64,000 bases of DNA from positions 108,467,739-108,531,738 of the forward strand of contig NC_134540.1 in the NCBI RefSeq assembly GCF_050624435.1, read 5' to 3'. Position 1 is the first letter of the stretch; each line of letters opens with the position of its first letter. Of this stretch, positions 4,420 to 55,424 are shown in pieces. The notes beneath the pieces were generated by a model. That model was not told where the DNA came from. It ran no database searches and was given only the letters and a program-made list of their open reading frames with translations. Source of the stretch: Tenrec ecaudatus. Its lineage: Eukaryota; Chordata; Mammalia; Afrosoricida; Tenrecidae. Made by a program: the position numbers and the translations under genes.

Positions 4420-4500
4420 AAAATAAAATTGTCTGATGAGCCTGTAGAAGCAAAAGAAGACTATACTAAGTTTAACACTAAAGATTTGAAGACAGAAAAG
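4420..4500 (+). CDS. RNASEH2B: RNASEH2B penultimate coding exon (27 codons)
   Basis: Encodes part of the flexible C-terminal region of ribonuclease H2 subunit B, a non-catalytic scaffold of the nuclear RNase H2 complex that removes ribonucleotides from DNA and RNA:DNA hybrids. The exon is 81 bp, begins and ends in phase 0, follows a TGACATTACAG acceptor and is followed by a strong GTATGT donor. Its translation starts [20 protein letters not shown] and ends KDLKTEK, which matches my memory of human RNASEH2B almost residue for residue. Conservation in a linker region, with consensus splice sites and no stop, makes this a functional exon rather than a pseudogene. The N-terminal triple-barrel domain is encoded upstream, outside the window. 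The phase-0 donor can join either the exon at 6836 or the one at 28531. Confidence 0.95.
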
Positions 4501-6835: not shown

Positions 6836-6943
6836 AAAAATAGCAAACTGACTGCCGCACAGAAGGCTTTGGCTAAAGTCGACAAGAGTGGGATGAAAAG
6901 TATCGCTAGCTTTTTTTGTGCCAAAAACAAAAGAAAGATTTGA
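6836..6943 (+). CDS. RNASEH2B: RNASEH2B terminal coding exon with PIP-like motif
   Basis: Encodes the last 35 residues of RNase H2 subunit B, after a TTTTCATTAACAG acceptor, in phase 0. The translation starts [19 protein letters not shown] and continues [16 protein letters not shown] before TGA at 6941-6943. The MKSIxxFF core is the PIP-like box that in human RNASEH2B binds PCNA and brings RNase H2 to replication foci. Here Met, Ile and both Phe are kept, while the two variable residues are A-S rather than D-T. The basic tail after the motif is present, but the protein ends about three residues earlier than my memory of the human sequence. This is the canonical end of the gene; the poly(A) signal follows at 7249. 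Confidence 0.95.
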
Positions 6944-7275
6944 AACTTTGAAAATAACATCTAGAAACGCTTTGCTTTTGCTTTATAACATGTCCAGCTT
7001 CCTCTCGTCCTCCACACCACAGTACTTCCTGATCCTTAATGGCCACTTTTGGAAGATAGAGCAAAAAAATATGTCCACAAATAAGCTAATGCGCAATTTT
7101 CATATTCAGTTGAACAATCTCTGTATTTTATTTTTATGTTCCTGGATTTGCAAAAGCAATTGTGTAATTGTATGGCCGGTGGCCTTTGGAGGCTTGTTCA
7201 ACATGGGGAAGCGTAATCACGAGGACAGAATAAGCAGCTGAGTCCCTCAATAAAAGATGACAGCCTTTCAGTGTC
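6944..7275 (+). other. RNASEH2B: RNASEH2B 3' untranslated region
   Basis: Runs from the stop codon to the likely cleavage site about 15-25 bases past the AATAAA at 7249. No SINE is inserted in it, which suits a conserved compact 3' UTR. The end coordinate is an estimate. Confidence 0.75.
7249..7254 (+). promoter_or_regulatory. RNASEH2B: Poly(A) signal AATAAA of RNASEH2B
   Basis: A canonical hexamer about 305 bases after the stop. It is followed at 7270-7290 by a GTCT/TGTC run that supplies the U/GU-rich downstream element needed for cleavage. Confidence 0.85.
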
Positions 7276-21882: not shown

Positions 21883-23035
21883 TTGGTGTTACGTGCTGTT
21901 CAGTCAGTGCGACTCATCGTGAGCCTATGTGAAACAGAATAAAACACTGCCCGGTGCTCCCAGTTGTTATGTTTGGGTCCACTGTTTTCGCCACTGTGTG
22001 AGTCCATCTTGTGGGAGGGCTTCCTCTTTTTTTTGCTGCTCTTCTTCCTACCTTGCCAAATATGATGTCCTTCTCCAGAGACTAATCTCTCCTGAGAACA
22101 TGTCCAAAGAATGTGAGGCAGTCTTGCCGTCCTTGCTTCTAAGACACATTCTGGATGTACGCGGGCACTCCATGGTATATTCAATATTCTTCATCAGCAC
22201 AATAATGCAAATGCATAGATTCTTCTTCAGAGTCTTCCTTGTTCAATGTCCGAAGGTAATATCCTTGCTTTTCAGCATTTTAAAGAGGTCTTATGCAGCA
22301 GACTTTCCCAATGGAATGTGTCGTTTATTTTCATTTCTGCTTCCATGAGCATTGACTGTGGCTCCAAGGAGGATGAAATCCTTGACAAACCTTTTCTCCA
22401 TTTATCATCATGTTACTTATTGGTCTAATTATGAAGTTTGGGGTTTTATTTACATTGAGTTGTAATTCATACTGAAGGCTGCAATCCTTGATCTTCATCA
22501 GCAAGTGCTTCAAGTCCCCCTCACTTTCAGCCAGCAAGGTTGTGACAGCTGCATATCGCAGAGTGTTAATAAATCTGCCTCCAGGCCTGAAGCCACATTC
22601 TTCTTCATCTAATCCAGCTTCCCTGATGATTTCTTCCACATATAGATTGAATAAGTATGGTGAGAGGACACCCTGACACATCACTTTCCTGATTTTCAAC
22701 CATGCAGTATTCTCTGGTTCTGTTTGCACAACTGACCCATGGACAGGTTCTGCGTGAGGATCAGGAAGTGTTTTTGAGTTTTCTCATTCATCTCCAGTCA
22801 ACCGATGGTTTTTTATGATCTACACAAGCAAATGCCTTTGCATTGTCTATAAAGCACAAGTAAACATCTTTCTGGTATTTTCTGCTTTTAGCCAAGGTTT
22901 ATCTGACAGCATGTTCCATGTCTTCTTCTGAATATGGCCTGATTTCCTGGTAGCTCCCTGTCAATGTACTGCCGAAATGGTTGTTGAATGATCATCAGCA
23001 AAATTTTCCTTACATGTGAAATGAATGATATATAT
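21883..23035 (-). mobile_element. RTE (BovB-like) LINE, antisense, 3' half
   Basis: The - strand encodes the RT domain of an RTE from 23035 back to the 3' end near 21883. The best open piece (22331-22729) contains QGVLSPYLFNLYVEEIIREA and TLLAESEGDLKHLLMKIKDC, which are RTE RT blocks. The catalytic YADD is Y-A-A-V (22544-22555), each aspartate lost by a single substitution, so this copy cannot reverse-transcribe. Confidence 0.9.
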
Positions 23036-23160: not shown

Positions 23161-24190
23161 GATCCACTGAAACTACTCAGCGTCATATTAAACGCTAAAG
23201 ACAAAGAGGTGGTGGCTTTACATGAAAGACAATGGTCAGGAATCACACCCACTCTCCTTCGTGGAAAGGTGAGAAGTCTACCATGAACAACTACTTCAAT
23301 GTGTGTGTAAAGAGAGAGAGACGTCAATATAATAGTTATAAAGAGATATTGATGTATGTGTGTGTGGATGGTAAGAGATAGATAGCTGTCCACTCATTCT
23401 AATTAAATCCATCCATCCCTTCATGCCCACTGGATACAGTTGACACCCAAGTTGACACTGGAAACCCCGCTCTCCTGCCTATGCTCCAAGATCATATCCC
23501 ATTGGCCTTTGACCTTTGAAAAACTACCTACATCAAACCCAACATACCCGCAATTATAAAAACTGTTTTTATTTCTCTTTCTAGAAGTAATTCTTGACAA
23601 ATTTATTTCTACAAATTGAAAAATTGCCAAAAAGTGCTCTATGGTAGACTGCCCCTAGGAAGCCCCCAGAGTGGAGCTAAGCCTGTATTTCTAGCACTGG
23701 GTATTGTTGAGCTGCAGAAAATCTAAATTTTCAAGTCTTTTGCTTTATTTCCAAGTTGGTCTTCAGAAGTTGTACTGTTTTAGCAGTATACAAGACTTCC
23801 CATTTCTCACATCTTCTCCACCTCAGCATCAGTTCTCAGCAGTGTCTTTTATAGATATCAAATAGGCCACACTCCCAAAGAAATGTCATCATGCTGTGAC
23901 TTGCACCACACAGGGGAAAGCTTTCTGCCAAAACATAGAGAATCCTGGCCACTAGTATGAATAAGTCTGCCATTATTAGTCAAGAGGGAGCAGTCAATTG
24001 ATGGTGCGACGTGCCAATGTTAATACCCAACGTATCAGCACCACTAAATGGCGTCTTGGTGAGAAGTGATCCTCCGTAGATTTCAACAATTTTGTCTGGA
24101 TGGGAAGTTATAGGAAAGCTGCTTGACCGATACTACTTAAAAAGCACTGGGTCATAATTTATTCCACAGGGACCTGGGTGCTATACCCTT
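23161..24190. other. Unassigned intergenic sequence
   Basis: No gene seen. The stretch from about 23990 may be further ERVL debris, but I cannot align it. Confidence 0.35.
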
Positions 24191-24194
24191 TCAA

Positions 24195-24447
24195 AAATGT
24201 CACACTGGTCCATTCCATTAATAGAATTATGCAGATTGGACCTAGTAAGGAAGACACATCAATTATTCTAGACCTTTTGGTAAGCCATCTGTGTTTTAAA
24301 GCATAGGAAATTAACTCAACAAAAATTCAGGTACCTTTTACCTCAGCAAAATGTCTAGGGGCCTGGGCCATGTCAAGATATTCCTACCAAAATAAAAGAT
24401 AATTATTGTATCTGGTACCTCTTTGTATTTTGGAGGCAATATATCAA
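24195..24447 (+). mobile_element. ERVL pol fragment
   Basis: Matches the reverse-transcriptase/RNase H junction region of old ERVL elements: ATTGGACCTAGTAAGGAAGA, CTAGACCTTTTGGTAAGC, AACAAAAATTCAGGTACC and TTTTGGAGGCAATATATC occur in family order. The aspartate pair of the catalytic motif has been lost just upstream of the IGPS-like residues. A decayed relic with stops. Confidence 0.75.
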
Positions 24448-24449
24448 GC

Positions 24450-25138
24450 TAATGGTGGTCAAAAGACATCAGTAGTAGCAATATTAATTTCTGACAAAAC
24501 AGACACGAAAGCCACCAGGAGAAACAAAGAAGACCATTGTACACTGATGAGAAGCACAATGGAGCATGAAGACATAACTGTGATAAGTACGTATGCACCC
24601 AATGAAAGACTTTAAAAATACCTTAATCAATTCTTACAGAACTGAAGAGACACATAGACTTTGATACCATAATACTAGGAAACTTCTACAGGTCACTTCT
24701 GAGCAAAGACAGATCAACTAGAAAGAAAATCAAACATACAGAAGAACTAAACACAATCAACGTGCTCTCTTCAATATGGGCAGAACACTGCACCTAACAA
24801 AAACACATGGAAGAAACTCCAGAACAGATCATATGCCAGGCCATCAATTAAGCGCCAATGAAATTTAAAACATCTATATGCTCCAAACCAGTTTTTTATA
24901 TCACAACGCTAGAAAATTAGAAAGCAACCACAGGACGATCAACCTCCACCCACCTCCCCCGAAAAAAAATTCAATTACATAGAAATCGAACACCATTTTG
25001 CTGTAAAATCACTGAGTCATTCCTGAAGAAATAAAAGGCACAATTTAAAAATTCCTTGGAACAATGATAATGAAATGTACCAAAATCTCTGGGGCACAGA
25101 AAATAGTGCACATAGGACAATTTATAGCAATAAGTGCA
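24450..25138 (+). mobile_element. Old L1 ORF2 relic, sense
   Basis: ATCTGACAAAACAGAC-like and AACTGTGATAAGTACGTATG followed by CACCCAATGAAAG look like the endonuclease-domain end of an old L1 ORF2. It joins ERVL pol at the left with no spacer. Many stops. Confidence 0.5.
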
Positions 25139-25139
25139 C

Positions 25140-25396
25140 AAACCATAAAGAAAGAATTATAATATCTTCTTGATGTCTTAAAGCTCTGGCCAAAACTTTC
25201 AGGACTATATTAAATGAGGATAGTGATAACAGGCAACGCTGTCTGGTTCCTATTTGGAAGGGGAGTGTCTTCAATTTTTCTCCATTAAATGAGATGCTAG
25301 CTGTTGGCTTTAAACAGATGGCCTTTATTATGTTCAGGAATTTTCCTTATATTTCTATTTTATTAAGTGGTTTTCAGTTTGTTTTTTCACTTGAAT
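25140..25396 (-). mobile_element. Old L1 ORF2 relic, antisense (part 1)
   Basis: Reversed RT-domain text such as GGACTATATTAAATGAGGAT and GCAACGCTGTCTGGTTCC. It breaks at a younger L1 insertion and seems to resume at 27395. Confidence 0.65.
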
Positions 25397-26865
25397 CTTT
25401 GGTAATTTTTAAAAATCATTTTACTGGGGGCTCATACAACTCTTAGCACAATTCATACATACATGCATTATATAAAGAATATTTGTACATTCATTACTCC
25501 ATCATTCTCAAAACATTTTCTCTCCACATAAGTCCCTGATACCCTCTCCTCATTTTTCCCCTCCCTTCTTGCTTTCCCCTCCCTCATGAACCCTTGATAA
25601 TTTATAAATTATTATTTTGACATATCTTACACTGTCCAACATCTCCCTTCACCCACTTCTCTGCTGTCCAGCCCCCAGGGAGGTGCTCATATGTAGATCC
25701 TTGTAATTGGTTCCCCCTCTCTACCCCACCCTCCCTCCACCGTCCCGGTATCGCCCCTCTCAGCACTGGTCCTGAAGGGATCATCTGTCCTGGATTCCCT
25801 GTGTTTCCAGCTCCCATCTATACCAGTGTACATCCTCCGGTCTAGCCAGATTTGCAAGGTAGAATTGGGATCATGATAGTGGGCAGGGAGGAAGCATTTA
25901 GGAACTAGAGGCAAGTTGTATGTTTCATCATTACTACACTGCACCCTGACTGGCTCATCTTCTCCTTGCGACACTTCATTAAGGGGATGTCCAGTTGCCT
26001 ACAGATAGGACTTGGGTCCTCACTCCACACTTCCCCTCATTCACAATGGTATGAATTTTTGTTGTTTGATGCTTGATACCTGATCCCTTCGACACTTTGT
26101 GATCACACAGGCTGGTGTGCTTCTTCCATGTGGGCTTTGTTGCTTCAAAGCTACATGGCCACTTGTTTACCTTCAAGTCTTTAAGACCCCAGATGCTATA
26201 TCTTTTGATAGCCGCGCACCATCAGCTTTCTTCGCCACATTTGCTTAAGCACCTGCTTTGTCTTCAGCAATTGTGTCAGGAAGGTGAGCATCATGGAATT
26301 CCAGTTGAATAGAAGAAAGTATTCTTGCATTGAGGGGGTACGTGAGTGGAGGCCCAATGTCCATCTGCTACTTTAATACTAAACCTATAAATATATGCAC
26401 ATAGATCTAATTCCCCATCCTCATATATAAATATATTTACATATATACATGCCTTTATTTAGACCTCTATAAATGCCCTTTGCCTCCTAGCTCTTTCCTC
26501 TTTTTCTTCTTACTTTCCTCTTGTCCCAAAATTATGCTCAGACTTCATTTGGGTTTTAGTAATTCCTCTCATTTACATTACCCTTGATCACACCCTACCA
26601 AGTCTCCTACACTCTCCTCACCACCGATTTGGATCACTTGTTGTTCCCTTGTCCCTGGGTTTGTTAACACCACTTCCTTTCCCCCCACCACCCCCTCTCC
26701 CATGTCCCCTGGAGGTCCTGTTGTTTTCTCCTCCAGATTGTTCATGCAGCCTATCTTATTTAGACAGATCTGTGGGGATAATAACATGCACAAAAACAAG
26801 ACAGAGCAAAACCAAGCAACTAAAGAAAACAAAAAGTCAATGACAAAACAAAAAAGAATGGATGT
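25397..26865 (-). mobile_element. L1 3' UTR, antisense, about 1.47 kb
   Basis: Runs from the reversed end ATTTTACTGGGGGCTCATAC through TGTCCAGTTGCCTACAGATA, TTTGTTGCTTCAAAGCTACA and GAAGGTGAGCATCATGGAAT to TTTAGACAGATCTGTGGGGA. This is most of the 3' UTR seen in sense at 53.2-55.4 kb. It contains no ORF2 and is inserted in the older antisense L1. Confidence 0.9.
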
Positions 26866-26904
26866 TGAATTTTATCAAATGTGTTTTTATATAGATTAAT
26901 TGTG

Positions 26905-27370
26905 GTAATTACATAATTTCATGTCAACTTGATCAATAAGTATAGTGTTGGAGTCTAGCCTGTAATCAGGTCTGATGATGCCTCCTTGTGGACATGGACT
27001 TCTCATGAGGATTCTGGGAACTTCCTCTCTCCCTGGAGGTAGGCCACAACTATCTCTCTGCTTCACCGTCCTGTTGACAAGCCACATGAAGCCACACTGA
27101 CACCTCCCTGGAGATGTTTCCACAGCCACTGGATCCCACCAACCTGTAATCTTTCCTCATTAGGCATCATTGCATGTGCTGCATGAGTCTGAAGAGAAAT
27201 CTACAGACTAGTATAGGACTTATGGACTACTATCAGAATAATGAACTTGACCTGGCCTGGTCTGGGATGCTTTCTCAATATCTAATTGCTCTTTGATATA
27301 AAGCTATTTCCTATACATATATGAACGTCCCTGGGTTTGTTTCTCTAGTCAACCCGGACTAACACATTGA
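26905..27370 (+). repeat. Unclassified interspersed repeat U1 (sense)
   Basis: Opens ATGTCAACTTGATCAATAAG and closes TTGTTTCTCTAGTCAACCCG and ACTAACACA. The same ends recur at 31205-31800, 41230-41745 and 46600-47180, and reversed at 27905-28400 and 30790-31165. The internal sequence varies. A non-autonomous element or LTR is possible; I cannot classify it. Confidence 0.55.
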
Positions 27371-27394
27371 TATAATCATATGACCCTTCTTTTG

Positions 27395-27550
27395 TCTTGT
27401 TTATGTGGCAGGTTACATTGTTTTTCTAATATTGAAACATCCTTGCAAACCTGATATGAAACCATGTTGATCATGGTGTATTTTTAAAATGTTTTGTTGA
27501 ATTTTCTTTGCTTCAAATTTGTTGAAATTTTTGGCATCTATATTCATAAG
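27395..27550 (-). mobile_element. Old L1 ORF2 relic, antisense (part 2)
   Basis: GAAACCATGTTGATCATGGTG and GGCATCTATATTCATAAGGG are reversed L1 ORF2 blocks that follow on from the piece ending at 25396. Confidence 0.75.
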
Positions 27551-27555
27551 GGATA

Positions 27556-27905
27556 AAAAACCATATGCATAAATGCTTGCATTCATTAGCCATATGAGAA
27601 ATGCAAATAAAAACATTGAGATATCACCTCACATGGACACCTTTAGCAAAATATAAAATAAATATAATAACAAATGTTGGAGAAGAGGTGGAGAGATTGG
27701 AATGTTCATACATTGCTGCTGGGATTGCAGGTTTGAACAAACACTATGGAAAATAGTATGGCACTTCATTAAACAAATACAAGTACCTTACTATGATGCA
27801 ATCTCTCTACATGGTATATACCCTGAAGAAATAAAGGGAAAAACATGCACAGATATATGAAAACCCGTGTTTATCACAGCAATTTCTATAATAGCGAGAA
27901 AGGAA
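27556..27905 (+). mobile_element. Old L1 ORF2 C-terminal relic, sense
   Basis: GAGAAATGCAAATAAAAACA, TGAGATATCACCTCAC, TTCATACATTGCTGCTGGGA and GGTATATACCCTGAAGAAA are ORF2 C-terminal blocks in sense order. The switch of orientation at about 27550 suggests inversion. Confidence 0.8.
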
Positions 27906-28400
27906 AAAAAAGGTTAGGTTGCATTGTCCAGAGAAACAAAACTAGTAACTCTCATATATATATGAACGAGCTTTGTATCAGGGTAATCATATCAAGAAAG
28001 CACTCCAGCCTAGTCCAAGTTCAGTCCATGGAGCTGATGCTAGCTAGAGCCCTCTTTAGACCCATGTAGAGTGTAAAGGCTGATTACACTGAAAGGTAAA
28101 GTGGGATGCAGGAAGATCACAGGCCAGAGGCACAGAGTTGCATGGATCTAAGCTCAATGGATACACTGCAGTGAACCAACAACTCTCAGGCTCGGGCAGT
28201 TCACCTAGGCCACCCTTGGAGATAGGCACAGAGGCCCAGCAAGCAGAAAGGTGAAAGGGCAGAAAGAAAGAAGTTTCCACTTTCTCTCATTAAAAGGGCA
28301 GACTTCCACGGAGACATCATCCGCCTGTGACCTGATAGACAGGTTGGACTCTACTCCTACCCAAGTGCAAGGTGATATACAATGTAACTGCCATGAACCA
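27905..28400 (-). repeat. Unclassified interspersed repeat U1 (antisense)
   Basis: Starts GGTTAGGTTGCATTGTCCAG then AGAAACAAAAC, the reverse of the U1 3' end. It continues with AAGATCACAGGCCAGAGGCA and closes near TATTAACTTGACACC, the reverse of the U1 5' end. Confidence 0.55.
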
Positions 28401-28504
28401 CCCCTTATTAACTTGACACCTGTACATAACTTTTTTATAGTATATAATGAGTTTTACTTAGCATTTTTATACAGTACATAACATAAATATGCAAATGACT
28501 CAAA

Positions 28505-28530
28505 CCTAACAAACTATGTATTTTTCATAG
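28505..28530 (+). promoter_or_regulatory. Branch point and 3' splice site
   Basis: CCTAAC places a consensus branch adenosine at 28509. A short T-rich tract and CATAG follow, putting the acceptor 21-22 bases downstream, which is ideal spacing. Confidence 0.75.
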
Positions 28531-28857
28531 GAAGGTGCAAGGAGAAGACAAAAATATCGTGAACCTCAAGAATATCTGAGCAAAGTAAAAAGTTCCCTGC
28601 AAGAATTTAGTTACAGACAATCCCCGAATCCTTTTTATGAATACCAGCAAGAGTTTACGCACCCAGATAAGGACAACAAATCAAGATCTCCAAACTGGTA
28701 TGCGTATGGCTCTTCCACTCTTGGTAAAGATGTTGCCGAATTAGAAAGTTCTTCTCAGATGACTCATAGTGAAGAGACAGAGACCTATGTGTATTCTTAC
28801 AGCTTACTCATACTTTTTCTTTTGATGTTAATATTTCTTGCTTTATATTTTCTCTGA
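28531..28857 (+). CDS. Terminal exon encoding a 108-residue C-terminal tail with membrane anchor; possible alternative RNASEH2B 3' exon
   Basis: Open in one frame from the acceptor to TGA at 28855-28857, with an in-frame TAG immediately upstream. It therefore reads as a spliced exon, not a free-standing gene. It begins EGARRRQKYREPQEYLSKVK (basic), has a polar middle rich in Ser, Tyr, Asn and Gln (residues 21-85), and ends with a hydrophobic run SYSLLILFLLMLIFLALYFL at residues 89-108 that reaches the C-terminus, as in a tail-anchored protein. AATAAA follows nine bases after the stop. It is in phase 0, matching the RNASEH2B donor at 4500, and on the same strand. I believe human RNASEH2B transcript models also include a more distal 3' end, but could not verify that or its sequence. 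It could instead end an unrelated gene whose other exons I have not found. Confidence 0.65.
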   Translation, partial: EGARRRQKYREPQEYLSKVKSSLQEFSYRQSPNPFYEYQQEFTHPDKDNKSRSPNWYAYGSSTLGKDVAELESSSQMTHSEETETYVYSYSLLILFLLMLIFLALYFL

Positions 28858-28865
28858 AGATATCA

Positions 28866-28871
28866 AATAAA
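28866..28871 (+). promoter_or_regulatory. Poly(A) signal AATAAA after the membrane-tail exon
   Basis: Lies nine bases past the stop at 28857, implying an extremely short 3' UTR. A T-rich region follows from 28874. Confidence 0.75.
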
Positions 28872-29071
28872 ATCATTTCGGTAATTTTAAAAGATTCCAT
28901 TTCATAAAAATGCTGTGCTCTCATTTTAGGGTTTCCTCCTAGAGTTTTCAGCATAACATTTCAATGTGAGCATTCAGCACGTGTGTACTCGTCAGTAGTC
29001 CTTGCAGCTATTCATAGAAACGTATTTGATGGACAGGTTGTCCACACAAAGGGTTATCACACACTTGATTA

Positions 29072-29182
29072 GGAATTGCTACTTCATAACTATCATTTTG
29101 CTACTGCTTTGAATCGGGTCACCCCTGTGAAAGGGTCATTCGACCCCCAAAGGGGTGGTGACCCACAGGTTGAGAACCGCTG
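29072..29182 (-). mobile_element. SPIN-type hAT transposon fragment
   Basis: The - strand starts with a hAT terminal inverted repeat, CAGCGGTTCTCAACCTGTGG, continues with CCCCTTTGGGGGTCG and CCCTTTCACAGGGGT, and ends with a GAAGTAGCAATTCC-like block. This is the terminus of the SPIN family, known for horizontal transfer among tetrapods including tenrec. The other terminus is missing and there is an internal deletion. Confidence 0.8.
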
Positions 29183-29634
29183 TCTTAATCCAATAATCCT
29201 ATCAACATCTTCCCCCACTTAGGAAAGTTTGTAAAGTAGCCACTTCACGGATTTAGCTCACCTTATTTGAGGTATCCAATATTTAAATTGCCCATTTCTA
29301 CCAACCCAGTGTGCTAAGGAGACACGTGGTTTCTTTGATGTGAAGGTTCTTAATTGCAGTTGGAACGTTGTGTCTGCATCTCTAAGCAAAGTCAAGCAGA
29401 CCAGGACCTCCATCAAGTTCGAAAGCAATGCGTAGTAGCATAGACATCTTCCTCTTGAACTACTTGCATTTAGGTCAACTTAGCATCATCAATGGATGCT
29501 GTAGTAAGCTAGGGGTTTCCCCTTATGACTACCCCCTGCTTCAGACTACAATCCCCTTCACATATCCTCGACAACACTAGCCCCTTGGACTAGGCCATGC
29601 CATAGACTCAGGTTCTACACAACTTGTTAGATCT
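29183..29634. other. Unassigned sequence
   Basis: No gene or named repeat seen. It may belong to the flank of the LTR that follows. Confidence 0.35.
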
Positions 29635-51414: not shown

Positions 51415-51430
51415 AAGAATCCGTGAGAGA
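51415..51430. repeat. Left target-site duplication of the 4-kb L1
   Basis: AAGAATCCGTGAGAGA here and AAGAATCTGTGAGAGA at 55425-55440: 16 bp with one mismatch. Confidence 0.95.
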
Positions 51431-53229
51431 TTAACATCATACTGGAGGTTTTAGCTAACAGCATAAGGCAAAGGAAAGACATCAAAGGTATTCATCTGGG
51501 GAATGAAGATGTGAAACTATCGTTATTTGCAGATGATATGATTTTATATATGGAAAATACCAAAAACTCCACAAGGGGAGTACTGGAAGCAATAGAGGAG
51601 TTTGCGAAGTGGCAGAATACAAGATCAACAAACAGAAGTCCATTGGACTGTTATACACATCGGATAAGACCACAGAAGAGGACATCAAAAAGGTGGTACC
51701 CTTCACAATTGCCAAGCACAAATGGAAATATTTAGGGATTAACCTGACTAAAAGAACAAAAGATTTATATGAGGAAAACGAACATTGTTATAAGAAACCT
51801 ACAGTGACCTCAACAAATGGAAGAATATCACATGCTCCTGAACTGGAAGACTCAATATAGTAAAGATGTCCGTTCTGCCCAAAGCACTACATAAGTTTAA
51901 TGCAATTCTGATTATATTACTCTTATCTTTCTTCAAAGAAATGGAACAACTGATTACCAACTTCATATGGAGAGGGAAAAAGCCCAGAATTAGCAGAGAA
52001 CTCCTCAAGAAGGACACAGTGGGAGGGCTTGCTGTACCTGACGTTAGCAAATATTATATAGCCACAGTGGTCAAAACAGCATGGTATTGGTATAATGACA
52101 TACTCAGACAGTGGAAAAGAACTGAAAACCCAGCAATAAAATCATCTGCATACAGATACCTGATCTTGGATAAGGGCCCAAAAAATATCAAATGGGAAGC
52201 ATATGCCCTCTTTAACACGTGGTGCTTGAAAAAAATGGATATCTACATTCAGAAAAATGAAACAAGACCCCTATCTCAGTGTATGCACAAGAATAAACTC
52301 AAGGTGGATCTCAGACCTTGAGGTAAACCCCAAACTATTAGAGACATCAATGAGGAAATTGGGACCAACCTGAGAACTTTGGGAATACATAGGTTATCAG
52401 AAATAGGGAAGGAGACAAAAACAGATGAGTCACAAATAGACAAGTGGGATATACTGAAGGTAAAACACCGCTGTACATAAAAAGAATTCACCAAGAGAGT
52501 AATAAGAGAGTCCACAGACTGGGAAAACATCTTTAGCAATGACACATCAGACAAAGGCCTTATTATTAAAATCTATAATACTCTGCTAGCTTCCCAAAAG
52601 GAAAAAACTAATTTCCCATTGAGGAGGTGGGCAAAGGACCTGAATGGAAGCTTCACAACGGCAGAAATCTGAATGGCTAACAAACATGAAAAATGTTCCA
52701 GATTTTTATCCAGAAGAGAAATGCAAATTAAAACAACAATGAGATACCACCTAACTCCCTCATAGATAGCCCAATTCAAAAAATCAGATAGCATCAAGTG
52801 TTGGAGGAGGTGTGGTGAGATAGGAACTCTCATCCACTGCTGGTAGACCTGTAGGTATGTACAGGCACTATGGAAATAGATTTGGTGATATCTAAAACAG
52901 ATGGAAATTGAGCTACCATATGATCCAGCAATCTCTATACTGGGCATATACCCCGAAGAGAAAAGAAACAAACTGGCCAGACATCTGTGCTCCAATGTTC
53001 ATCATGGCACAGTTCAAAATCGCAAGGAGTTGAAACAACCCAAATTTCCATCAACAGATGAATGGATTAAAAAACTGTCGTACATTCATGTAATGGAGTA
53101 CTACACATCGCTAAAAAGCAGTGATGAACGCATGAAGCACATCACTGCATGGGAAGAACTGGAGGAAATTATGCTAAGTGAAGTAAGCCAAGCACAAAAG
53201 GACAAGTACTACACGAGTCCGCTGAGATA
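51431..53229 (+). pseudogene. L1 ORF2 C-terminal half, disrupted
   Basis: The frame opens with an [16 protein letters not shown]-type RT block and [14 protein letters not shown], which contains the catalytic F-A-D-D at about 51526-51537. It shifts frame near 51600 ([15 protein letters not shown]), stops at 51858-51860, reopens at 51866 (NFIWRGKKPRISRELLKKD), stops at 52319-52321, and resumes at 52901-53229 with the Cys-rich-region relic ending SEVSQAQKDKYYTSPLR. Several inactivating changes; no activity expected. Confidence 0.9.
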
Positions 53230-55424
53230 AGCTTTAAAAAAAATGCAAAAGGGGCATAGGGAAAAAGCTACTGTATACAAACATTCCTGGGGTGAGGAAC
53301 AGATAGTATGACAGGAGCCAGACAAAATCCAGGGATACATATGTTAGCCAACTAAAAAGGTGGGGGGAGAAATGGGTAGGGAAAGAGGGACCAGACTTCA
53401 ACCTGGTGCACCAAGATGTGAAGACAACACACCAGCATGAAGCAGGGAGCCAGTAGAGAGGTCTGAGGGGCCGGCCCCAATCCCAACTATGTGGACAGCT
53501 GCCCCTCCCACGAGAAGAATTTACTTCAGAGAACAGCACTGAAGCTACAGCTCAGGGAGAGGGACATGTCTGATCAGAGCACATGGGAGCAAATGAAGGG
53601 GGAGGAAGACAGAGTGGAGCACATTCTGGCCCACAAAGCCTTGAGGACAATATCCCTGCTCAGGCAGCCAATGCAGAGAGAGGACCATATGGCTGGCCCC
53701 ACTATGAGATACAACATCCTTCACTGACCCATAGCCCTACTGGGGACAACACTGGAGACACAGTGCAGGAATTGTACCCCATCTGACCCCACCACACCGA
53801 GGCAAAAGACTTAAGAGTGTGCAACAGAACAGCAAGGGGAGCAGAGCAAGGAAGTCCCAAGGGAGTACTAAAAATAGACTTTGGGGCCAGCTGGTGGCAC
53901 CCCATCAGACCAGACCAGAAAACACTCCTAAATGTCAACAAACAGGCCTTGAACTATTTACAGGCTTTTCTTTTTTTGGTCATTGATTTTGTTGTTGTTA
54001 TTTTGTTTTGTTGCTTTATTTTCTCTGTCTTGTTCTTATGCTTCTTATTGTCTCTGCAGGTCTATCTAGATAAGATAGGTGGGATAAACAAACTGGAGGA
54101 GAAAACAACGGACTGGTGGTTCTGGAGGAACATGGGAGAGGGGTGGGGTGGGGAAAAGAAGTGGTGTTAACAAACCCAGGGACAAGGGAACAATAAGCGA
54201 TACAAAATCAGTGGCAAGGAGGGTGTGAGAGGCCTGGTAGGGATTGATCAAGGGCAATGTAACAGAGAGAAATTACTGAAACCCAAATGAAGGCTGAGGA
54301 TGATAGCGGGACAAGAGGACATTAAAAGGAAACAGGAAAGAACTAGGAAACAAAGGACATTAATAGAGGTCTAAAGACTGGTTGTACATATGTAAATATA
54401 TTTGTATATGACGATGGGGAAATATATCTATGTGCATATATTTATAGGTTTAAATTAAGGTAGCAGATGGACATTGGGCCTCCACTCAAGTACTCCCCCA
54501 ATGCAAGAATACTTTCTTCTATTCAACTGGCATTCCATAATGCTCACCTTCCTGACACAATCGCTGAAGACAAAGCGGGTGCATAAGCAAATGTGGGGAA
54601 GAAAGCTGATGGTGACCAACTATCAAAAGATATAGCAGTCTGGGATCTTAAAGGCTTGTAGGCAAACAAGTGGCCATCTAGCTTGGAAACAACAAAGCCC
54701 ACCTGGAAGAACAACACCAGCCTCTATGATCACGAGGTGTCGATGGGATCAGGGATCAGGCATCAAAGAACAAAAAAATCATATCATTGTGAACGAGGGA
54801 GATTGTGGAGTGGGGACTCAAATCCTATCTGTAGGCAACTGGACATCCCTTTACAGAAAGATAGCAGGAAGGAAATGTGCCAGTCAGGGTACAGTGTAGC
54901 AATGACAAAATGTACAATTTTCCTCTAGTTCTTAAATGTTTCTTCCCACCCCCCACTATCATTATTTCAATTCTACCTTACAAATCTGACTAGACCAGAG
55001 GATGTCCACTGGAACAGATAGGAACTGGAAACACGAGATATCCAGGACAGATGATCCCTTCAGGACCAGTAGTGAGAGTGGCGATACTGGAGGGTGGAGG
55101 GAGGGTGGGGTGGAAAGGGGGAACCGATTATAAGGATCTACATATAACCTCCTGCCTGCCAGATGGACAACAGAAAAGTGGGTGATGGAGGACATCGGAC
55201 AGTGTAAGATGTGACAAAATAATAATAATTTATAAATTATCAAGGAACATGGGGAGGGAGGGGAAATGAAGAGCTGATACCAAGGCCTCAGGTTGAAAGC
55301 AAATGTTGTGAGAATGATGATGGCGACAAATGTACAAGTGTGCTCGACACATGGATGTATGCATGGATTGTGATAAGAGTTGTCCAAGCCCCCAGTAAAA
55401 TGATTTAAAAACAAACAAACAAAA
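53230..55424 (+). other. L1 3' UTR (reference copy)
   Basis: Order of landmarks: AAACATTCCTGGGGTGAGG; T-rich tract at 53968-54030; TAGATAAGATAGGTGGGATA; GGTAGCAGATGGACATTGGG; AAAGCCCACCTGGAAGAAC; TGGACATCCCTTTACAGAAA; GATAAGAGTTGTCCAAGCCC. Polypyrimidine and G-rich segments alternate. The truncated L1s elsewhere in the window are pieces of this region. Confidence 0.9.

Follow-up and report, generated by a model that had tools for sequence, protein, structure and literature searches.

A copy of the VRK2 terminal exon downstream of RNASEH2B in tenrecs and its predicted use as a membrane-anchoring tail

Retroposed sequence can become part of a host gene through splicing, as in TRIM5-CypA (TRIMCyp), where it has been spliced in as the new 3' part of the gene. 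RNase H2 is a nuclear genome-maintenance enzyme whose subunit RNASEH2B is involved in nuclear import and PCNA binding and joins RNASEH2A and RNASEH2C through its folded domains. Membrane attachment can in turn be decided by the choice of 3' exons. The VRK2 literature describes a hydrophobic C-terminal tail that anchors the kinase VRK2A at the endoplasmic reticulum (ER) and mitochondria, and a soluble form, VRK2B, that arises when the penultimate exon is included (PMC2243017, PMC7417415, PMC6172193, PMC9062753). Loss of function of RNASEH2B leads to Aicardi-Goutieres syndrome type 2, according to a passage of PMC3879169, in which GUCY1B2 is also listed beside RNASEH2B for the corresponding cattle region.

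The locus considered here lies in a stretch of 64 kb of DNA from Tenrec ecaudatus, referred to as the window (Table 1). On the evidence of its sequence, the segment 28531-28857 is a copy of the VRK2 terminal exon that encodes the ER/mitochondria anchor of VRK2A, and it is situated about 21.6 kb downstream of RNASEH2B on the same strand. The copy is homologous to the VRK2A terminal exon and begins at the same exon boundary, and its last 16 residues (LILFLLMLIFLALYFL) are identical to those of aardvark and elephant VRK2, but its place is beside RNASEH2B, where gene models attach it to a nuclease subunit and the kinase is absent. As in the choice between VRK2B and VRK2A, an alternative 3' exon would decide membrane attachment, with the difference that in tenrec RNASEH2B the exon of the membrane form would be imported from another gene. 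The likeness to TRIMCyp is that retroposed sequence would be captured by splicing as the new 3' part of a host gene. However, in TRIMCyp the captured part is the retrocopied gene, read in sense, whereas the putative tenrec retrocopy, that of FANCL, is antisense and decayed, and the captured exon would be that of the convergent neighbour of FANCL, with splice and poly(A) signals of its own. Exon shuffling by retroposition is a known principle, of which the antisense carriage of a neighbour's exon and its fusion to RNASEH2B would be a new form. In the literature on RNASEH2B isoforms, splicing, NLS/PIP/PCNA, GUCY1B2 and tenrecs, titles and abstract openings gave no report of an RNASEH2B-VRK2 exon fusion.

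Table 1. Coordinates of features in the 64-kb window.
Feature	Position	Strand	Remarks
RNASEH2B penultimate coding exon	4420..4500	+	27 codons, phase 0, NLS-like start (by eye); in P0025 (X2), skipped in P0002 (X1)
RNASEH2B canonical last coding exon	6836..6943	+	MKSIASFF, presumed PIP-like, at 6893-6916; in P0025, missing from P0002 and P0003
AATAAA, canonical RNASEH2B 3' end	7249..7254	+
CTAAC branch-like site and acceptor ...CATAG	28506..28530	+	CTAAC at 28506-28510; boundary agrees with the VRK2 exon junction in splice variant P0010
Copied terminal exon	28531..28857	+	VRK2-derived, 108 codons and TGA; last exon of RNASEH2B model X1; predicted tail anchor encoded by the final ~20 codons
AATAAA of the copied exon	28866..28871	+
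Decayed FANCL 3' end	28972..29076	-	covers residues 319-353, with a stop at codon 341; no interruption at the exon 12/13 junction
Presumed SPIN-like hAT transposon end, truncated	29077..29181		by eye; directly abuts the FANCL remnant (right edge)

A previous sequence-only reading had described a single frame of 108 codons that opens at an acceptor behind a CTAAC site, ends in about 20 hydrophobic residues and is soon followed by AATAAA. This description was accurate: the frame starts at CATAG/GAAGG, its final 19 residues have a mean Kyte-Doolittle hydropathy of 2.73, and the hexamer lies at 28866. In a scoring by position matrix, the acceptor takes rank 118 among the 4558 AGs of the plus strand, and the two real RNASEH2B acceptors of the window rank 427 and 210. 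Six candidates in the window (two on the plus strand and four on the minus strand) combine an acceptor at least as good as that of 28531 with an open frame of at least 90 codons, by criteria set after the case was known; among these six, a poly(A) signal at most 60 nt from the stop occurs for the frame at 28531 alone, as does a hydrophobic end. Under the same post hoc criteria, both signs together occurred in none of 60 simulated 64-kb strands. Codon usage (human table) gave no coding signal for the frame, at -20 bits over 108 codons, and the known RNASEH2B exon at 4420 is likewise unfavoured (-1.9 bits over 27 codons). A Pfam search of the 108 residues returned no family, and viral and prokaryotic contigs, when scanned, contained no relative, which is what one would expect of mammalian DNA. 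That 28531-28857 is a real exon is confirmed at the sequence level, with homology as the decisive support.

This homology covers the whole frame: the alignment with the C-terminal VRK2 tail takes in all 108 residues, with 50-74% identity across ten VRK2 tails. Homologous tails were found in aardvark (E 1e-31, composite query), elephant, manatee, dugong and golden mole. Identity is 74% to elephant, 69% to aardvark, 67% to dugong, 63% to golden mole and 50% to elephant shrew, 56-58% to armadillo, tamandua, horse and marmoset, and 50% to the tail of Tenrec's own VRK2, which itself reaches 50-55% to aardvark, elephant and dugong VRK2 and 42% to golden mole. In the VRK2 splice variant P0010, a 30-residue insert sits exactly before the homologous glutamate (ESTRRR), and the acceptor at 28531 can therefore be equated with the boundary of the VRK2 terminal exon; together with the branch-like site, it was probably inherited from the last VRK2 intron. 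Since the VRK2 of Tenrec (P0184, 504 aa) is still complete, has a tail of its own and lies on a contig of 88.3 Mb, and the RNASEH2B models lie on one of 153.3 Mb, the exon in the window is a copy and not the displaced original. No Echinops VRK2 stood among the 120 matches listed out of 1224.

On the side of RNASEH2B, exon 4420-4500 aligns to residues 248-274 of the solved RNASEH2B chain 8yjz_G (E 2e-11), so that the donor at 4500 is in phase 0, as the sequence-only reading had it. The canonical Tenrec protein matches the window only around the two coding exons of Table 1, and the exon upstream of 4420 falls outside it. A search with a composite query built from the window yielded 269 proteins at E of at most 10, the best 120 of which were examined. 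At their head stands RNASEH2B isoform X1 of Tenrec ecaudatus (P0002, 351 aa), with a tail 100% identical to the window frame (E 1.6e-62); isoform X1 of Echinops telfairi (P0003, 321 aa) has the same tail, identical at 96 of 108 positions and equal in length. These two genera both belong to Tenrecinae. VRK2 kinases and canonical RNASEH2B proteins follow, and as the best 120 were sorted by score, any other fusion in the database should have ranked near the top. In both genera the junction reads ...SPPSK/E(G/N)ARRR, which leads from the exon before 4420 directly into the copied exon and skips two conserved exons, namely 4420-4500 and the last one, 6836-6943, with MKSIASFF, which, in line with the sequence-only reading, we take to be PIP-like. 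The X1 isoforms are computational gene models named by NCBI, and the Echinops exon is known from the protein model alone, so that its DNA might still contain stops; alternative models in the NCBI pipeline normally need transcript evidence. The predicted replacement of the PIP-like exon by a membrane tail agrees with these models in two tenrec genera, but in them the donor proposed for it, at 4500, gives way to that of the preceding exon, so that 4420-4500 is skipped as well. Some RNASEH2B transcripts would then extend beyond the usual poly(A) site and have their ...SPPSK exon joined to 28531.

Immediately downstream of the copied exon lies, on the opposite strand, a remnant of FANCL. It was first found with a human FANCL sequence; the alignment, which ends at residue 353, scores 118 against 46 for the best of 60 shuffles, and 22 window-encoded residues confirmed the match against the FANCL chains of the PDB (best 4ccg, E 2.6e-6). 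The remnant passes from E340 to codon 341 without an intron, this E340/W341 step being the single junction inside the alignment and the position of an intron in human FANCL. Exon 13 of human FANCL consists of exactly Trp341-Lys364, as given in PMC8372062. Because the remnant runs uninterrupted across this human exon junction, where tenrec FANCL is assumed to have an intron as well, the FANCL part looks spliced; the VRK2 part retains its acceptor. In mammals, VRK2 and FANCL are, we assume, convergent neighbours that overlap at their 3' ends. This arrangement is not stated in passages of PMC10349461. A spliced FANCL mRNA whose 3'UTR crosses the last VRK2 exon in antisense is the simplest single source, and probably the actual one, for both the spliced FANCL part and the acceptor-bearing VRK2 part. 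A LINE-mediated retrocopy of such an mRNA, inserted antisense to RNASEH2B, would place the VRK2 exon in sense, and the copied piece would bring with it a branch-like site, an acceptor, a frame, a stop and a poly(A) signal.

As to traces of insertion, no 20-mer with at least 16 A or T was found between 22000 and 31000, and a copy common to two genera may have lost its poly(A) tract; a short AGTAAA followed by A6 on the minus strand near 28431-28458 was noted by eye and is too weak as evidence for one. No exact 10-base repeat joins 24001-28531 and 29041-29420; the left edge of the insert is not fixed, and a target-site duplication may likewise have been lost. The element that abuts the remnant, assigned by eye to a SPIN-like hAT family, is a possible trace of the insertion site or of a deletion that followed. 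Elsewhere in the window, open frames at 51427-53230 (plus strand) and 22331-22783 (minus strand) resemble by eye pieces of LINE reverse transcriptases (L1-like and RTE-like, respectively), and positions 697-855 hold a near-perfect tandem duplication of an 80-bp unit with 98% matches. The catalytic domain of GUCY1B1, used as a query, detected no guanylate-cyclase exon in the window (best E 0.6).

The copy in the two tenrecs appears to be well preserved. In a tree of the tails, the branches of the two copies measure 0.04 and 0.09 and their stem 0.09 (support 92/85), while that of native Tenrec VRK2 reaches 0.83-0.88, against 0.04-0.61 for the 11 others; in this tree, where five of nine inner branches are open and one is starred, native Tenrec VRK2 with its very long branch stands apart from the copy. 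Since the branches of the copy are short and that of native Tenrec VRK2 is long, the copy looks, from sequence comparison, more constrained than its source gene in this species, next to a piece of FANCL that has decayed. The native Tenrec tail (P0184 residues 398-504) is unusually divergent. In the RNASEH2B core, Tenrec and Echinops agree at 201 of 213 positions. The 12 differences between their tails are unevenly spread, with nine in residues 1-44, none in 45-83 and three in 84-108; one of the 12 falls in the last 19 residues.

The explanations of this locus differ in how much of the evidence they accommodate. The exon may be a VRK2-derived relic that has stayed open by chance, X1 being a prediction artefact or rare read-through noise without a functional protein. 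The computational nature of the X1 models and the neutral codon usage are in keeping with such a relic, and so is a neutral simulation (4000 runs for each assumed divergence, before indels) in which the observed similarity without stops arose in 35% of runs at 0.05. Yet it was rare at 0.08 (5%) and 0.10 (0.75%), and less frequent above; models in two genera share the unusual junction that leaves out two conserved exons, and the adjoining FANCL piece did acquire a stop. We consider a relic of this kind rather unlikely. A stretch opened by mere chance deserves practically no credence, for although dozens of stop-free frames of at least 90 codons occur in the 64 kb, the homology and the joint signals contradict it.

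Different routes of arrival were also weighed. Duplication of the VRK2-FANCL 3' junction at the DNA level, which would leave the use of the exon by RNASEH2B unchanged, would account for the VRK2 acceptor kept on the plus strand and for the missing poly(A) tract and target-site duplication in the flanks searched, but genomic DNA would not be expected to give a FANCL remnant that continues unbroken from exon 12 into exon 13, and such an event is decidedly unlikely. Tail homology alone would suit an ordinary retrocopy of VRK2 mRNA as well. This is, however, highly improbable, as no upstream VRK2 exon precedes 28531; the match of native Tenrec VRK2 to the window is confined to its residues 398-504 (E 8e-16), with E above 6 for the three remaining hits. 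Moreover, the match begins at an exon boundary behind an acceptor, and the antisense FANCL would be left unexplained. The sequence-only reading had favoured a hidden RNASEH2B exon of mammals, in effect an ancient one conserved in placentals, to which phase and strand conform and for which it adduced possible distal 3' ends of human RNASEH2B. This idea is scarcely credible and had to be abandoned, since a hydrophobic end occurs in just two, both from tenrecs, among 87 RNASEH2B-like proteins that were selected by motif out of 216, and the proteins of golden mole (P0033) and manatee (P0032) end canonically; with the exon being a VRK2 copy, these human 3' ends are not needed. The joint reading, in which a copy of the VRK2 exon arrived through a FANCL retrocopy, is spliced to RNASEH2B and gives a tail-anchored product, is the one that we hold to be probable.

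The predicted X1 product combines a familiar core with a new end. Its first 243 residues are identical to those of the canonical Tenrec isoform X2 (P0025, 305 aa), with both Pfam domains present, PF17745 (residues 27-92) and PF09468 (95-224), corresponding to the triple-barrel and wHTH domains; since both are kept, the product should still join RNASEH2A and RNASEH2C. It lacks the last 62 residues of X2, which hold the NLS-like segment (by eye) and the PIP-like motif, and residues 244-351 correspond letter for letter to the window frame. In X1, a disordered linker followed by a helix at the C-terminus would take the place of these two elements. A low-confidence AlphaFold2 model (mean pLDDT 49.9, with 234-332 below 50) puts the helix at residues 325-350. 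A single hydrophobic segment is found, at the extreme C-terminus (333-351, 19-residue Kyte-Doolittle mean 2.73), and none elsewhere; in the canonical form, which shares residues 1-243, hydropathy peaks at 1.31. By analogy with VRK2A, the product should be a tail-anchored RNASEH2B at the ER, nuclear envelope or mitochondria, and an RNase H2 tethered in this way is expected to face the cytosol. It could act on cytosolic RNA:DNA hybrids, or serve as a brake on nuclear RNase H2 through the diversion of subunits.

A FANCL retrocopy may have carried the complete VRK2 anchor exon in antisense within its 3'UTR and so brought it to RNASEH2B. Tenrecs may keep the exon under selection as part of a membrane-tethered RNase H2 that lacks the signals for nucleus and PCNA and perhaps acts on RNA:DNA hybrids of the cytosol, the native VRK2 anchor having drifted meanwhile; we put this forward tentatively, as a possibility a little short of even. 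If true, tenrecs would be a natural lineage for testing the action of RNase H2 outside the nucleus. Where convergent genes overlap, a retrocopy of one can carry, in antisense, an exon of the other that is ready for splicing, and antisense carriage in retrocopies would then be a general way to move whole exons, in cases that searches for sense retrogenes would miss.
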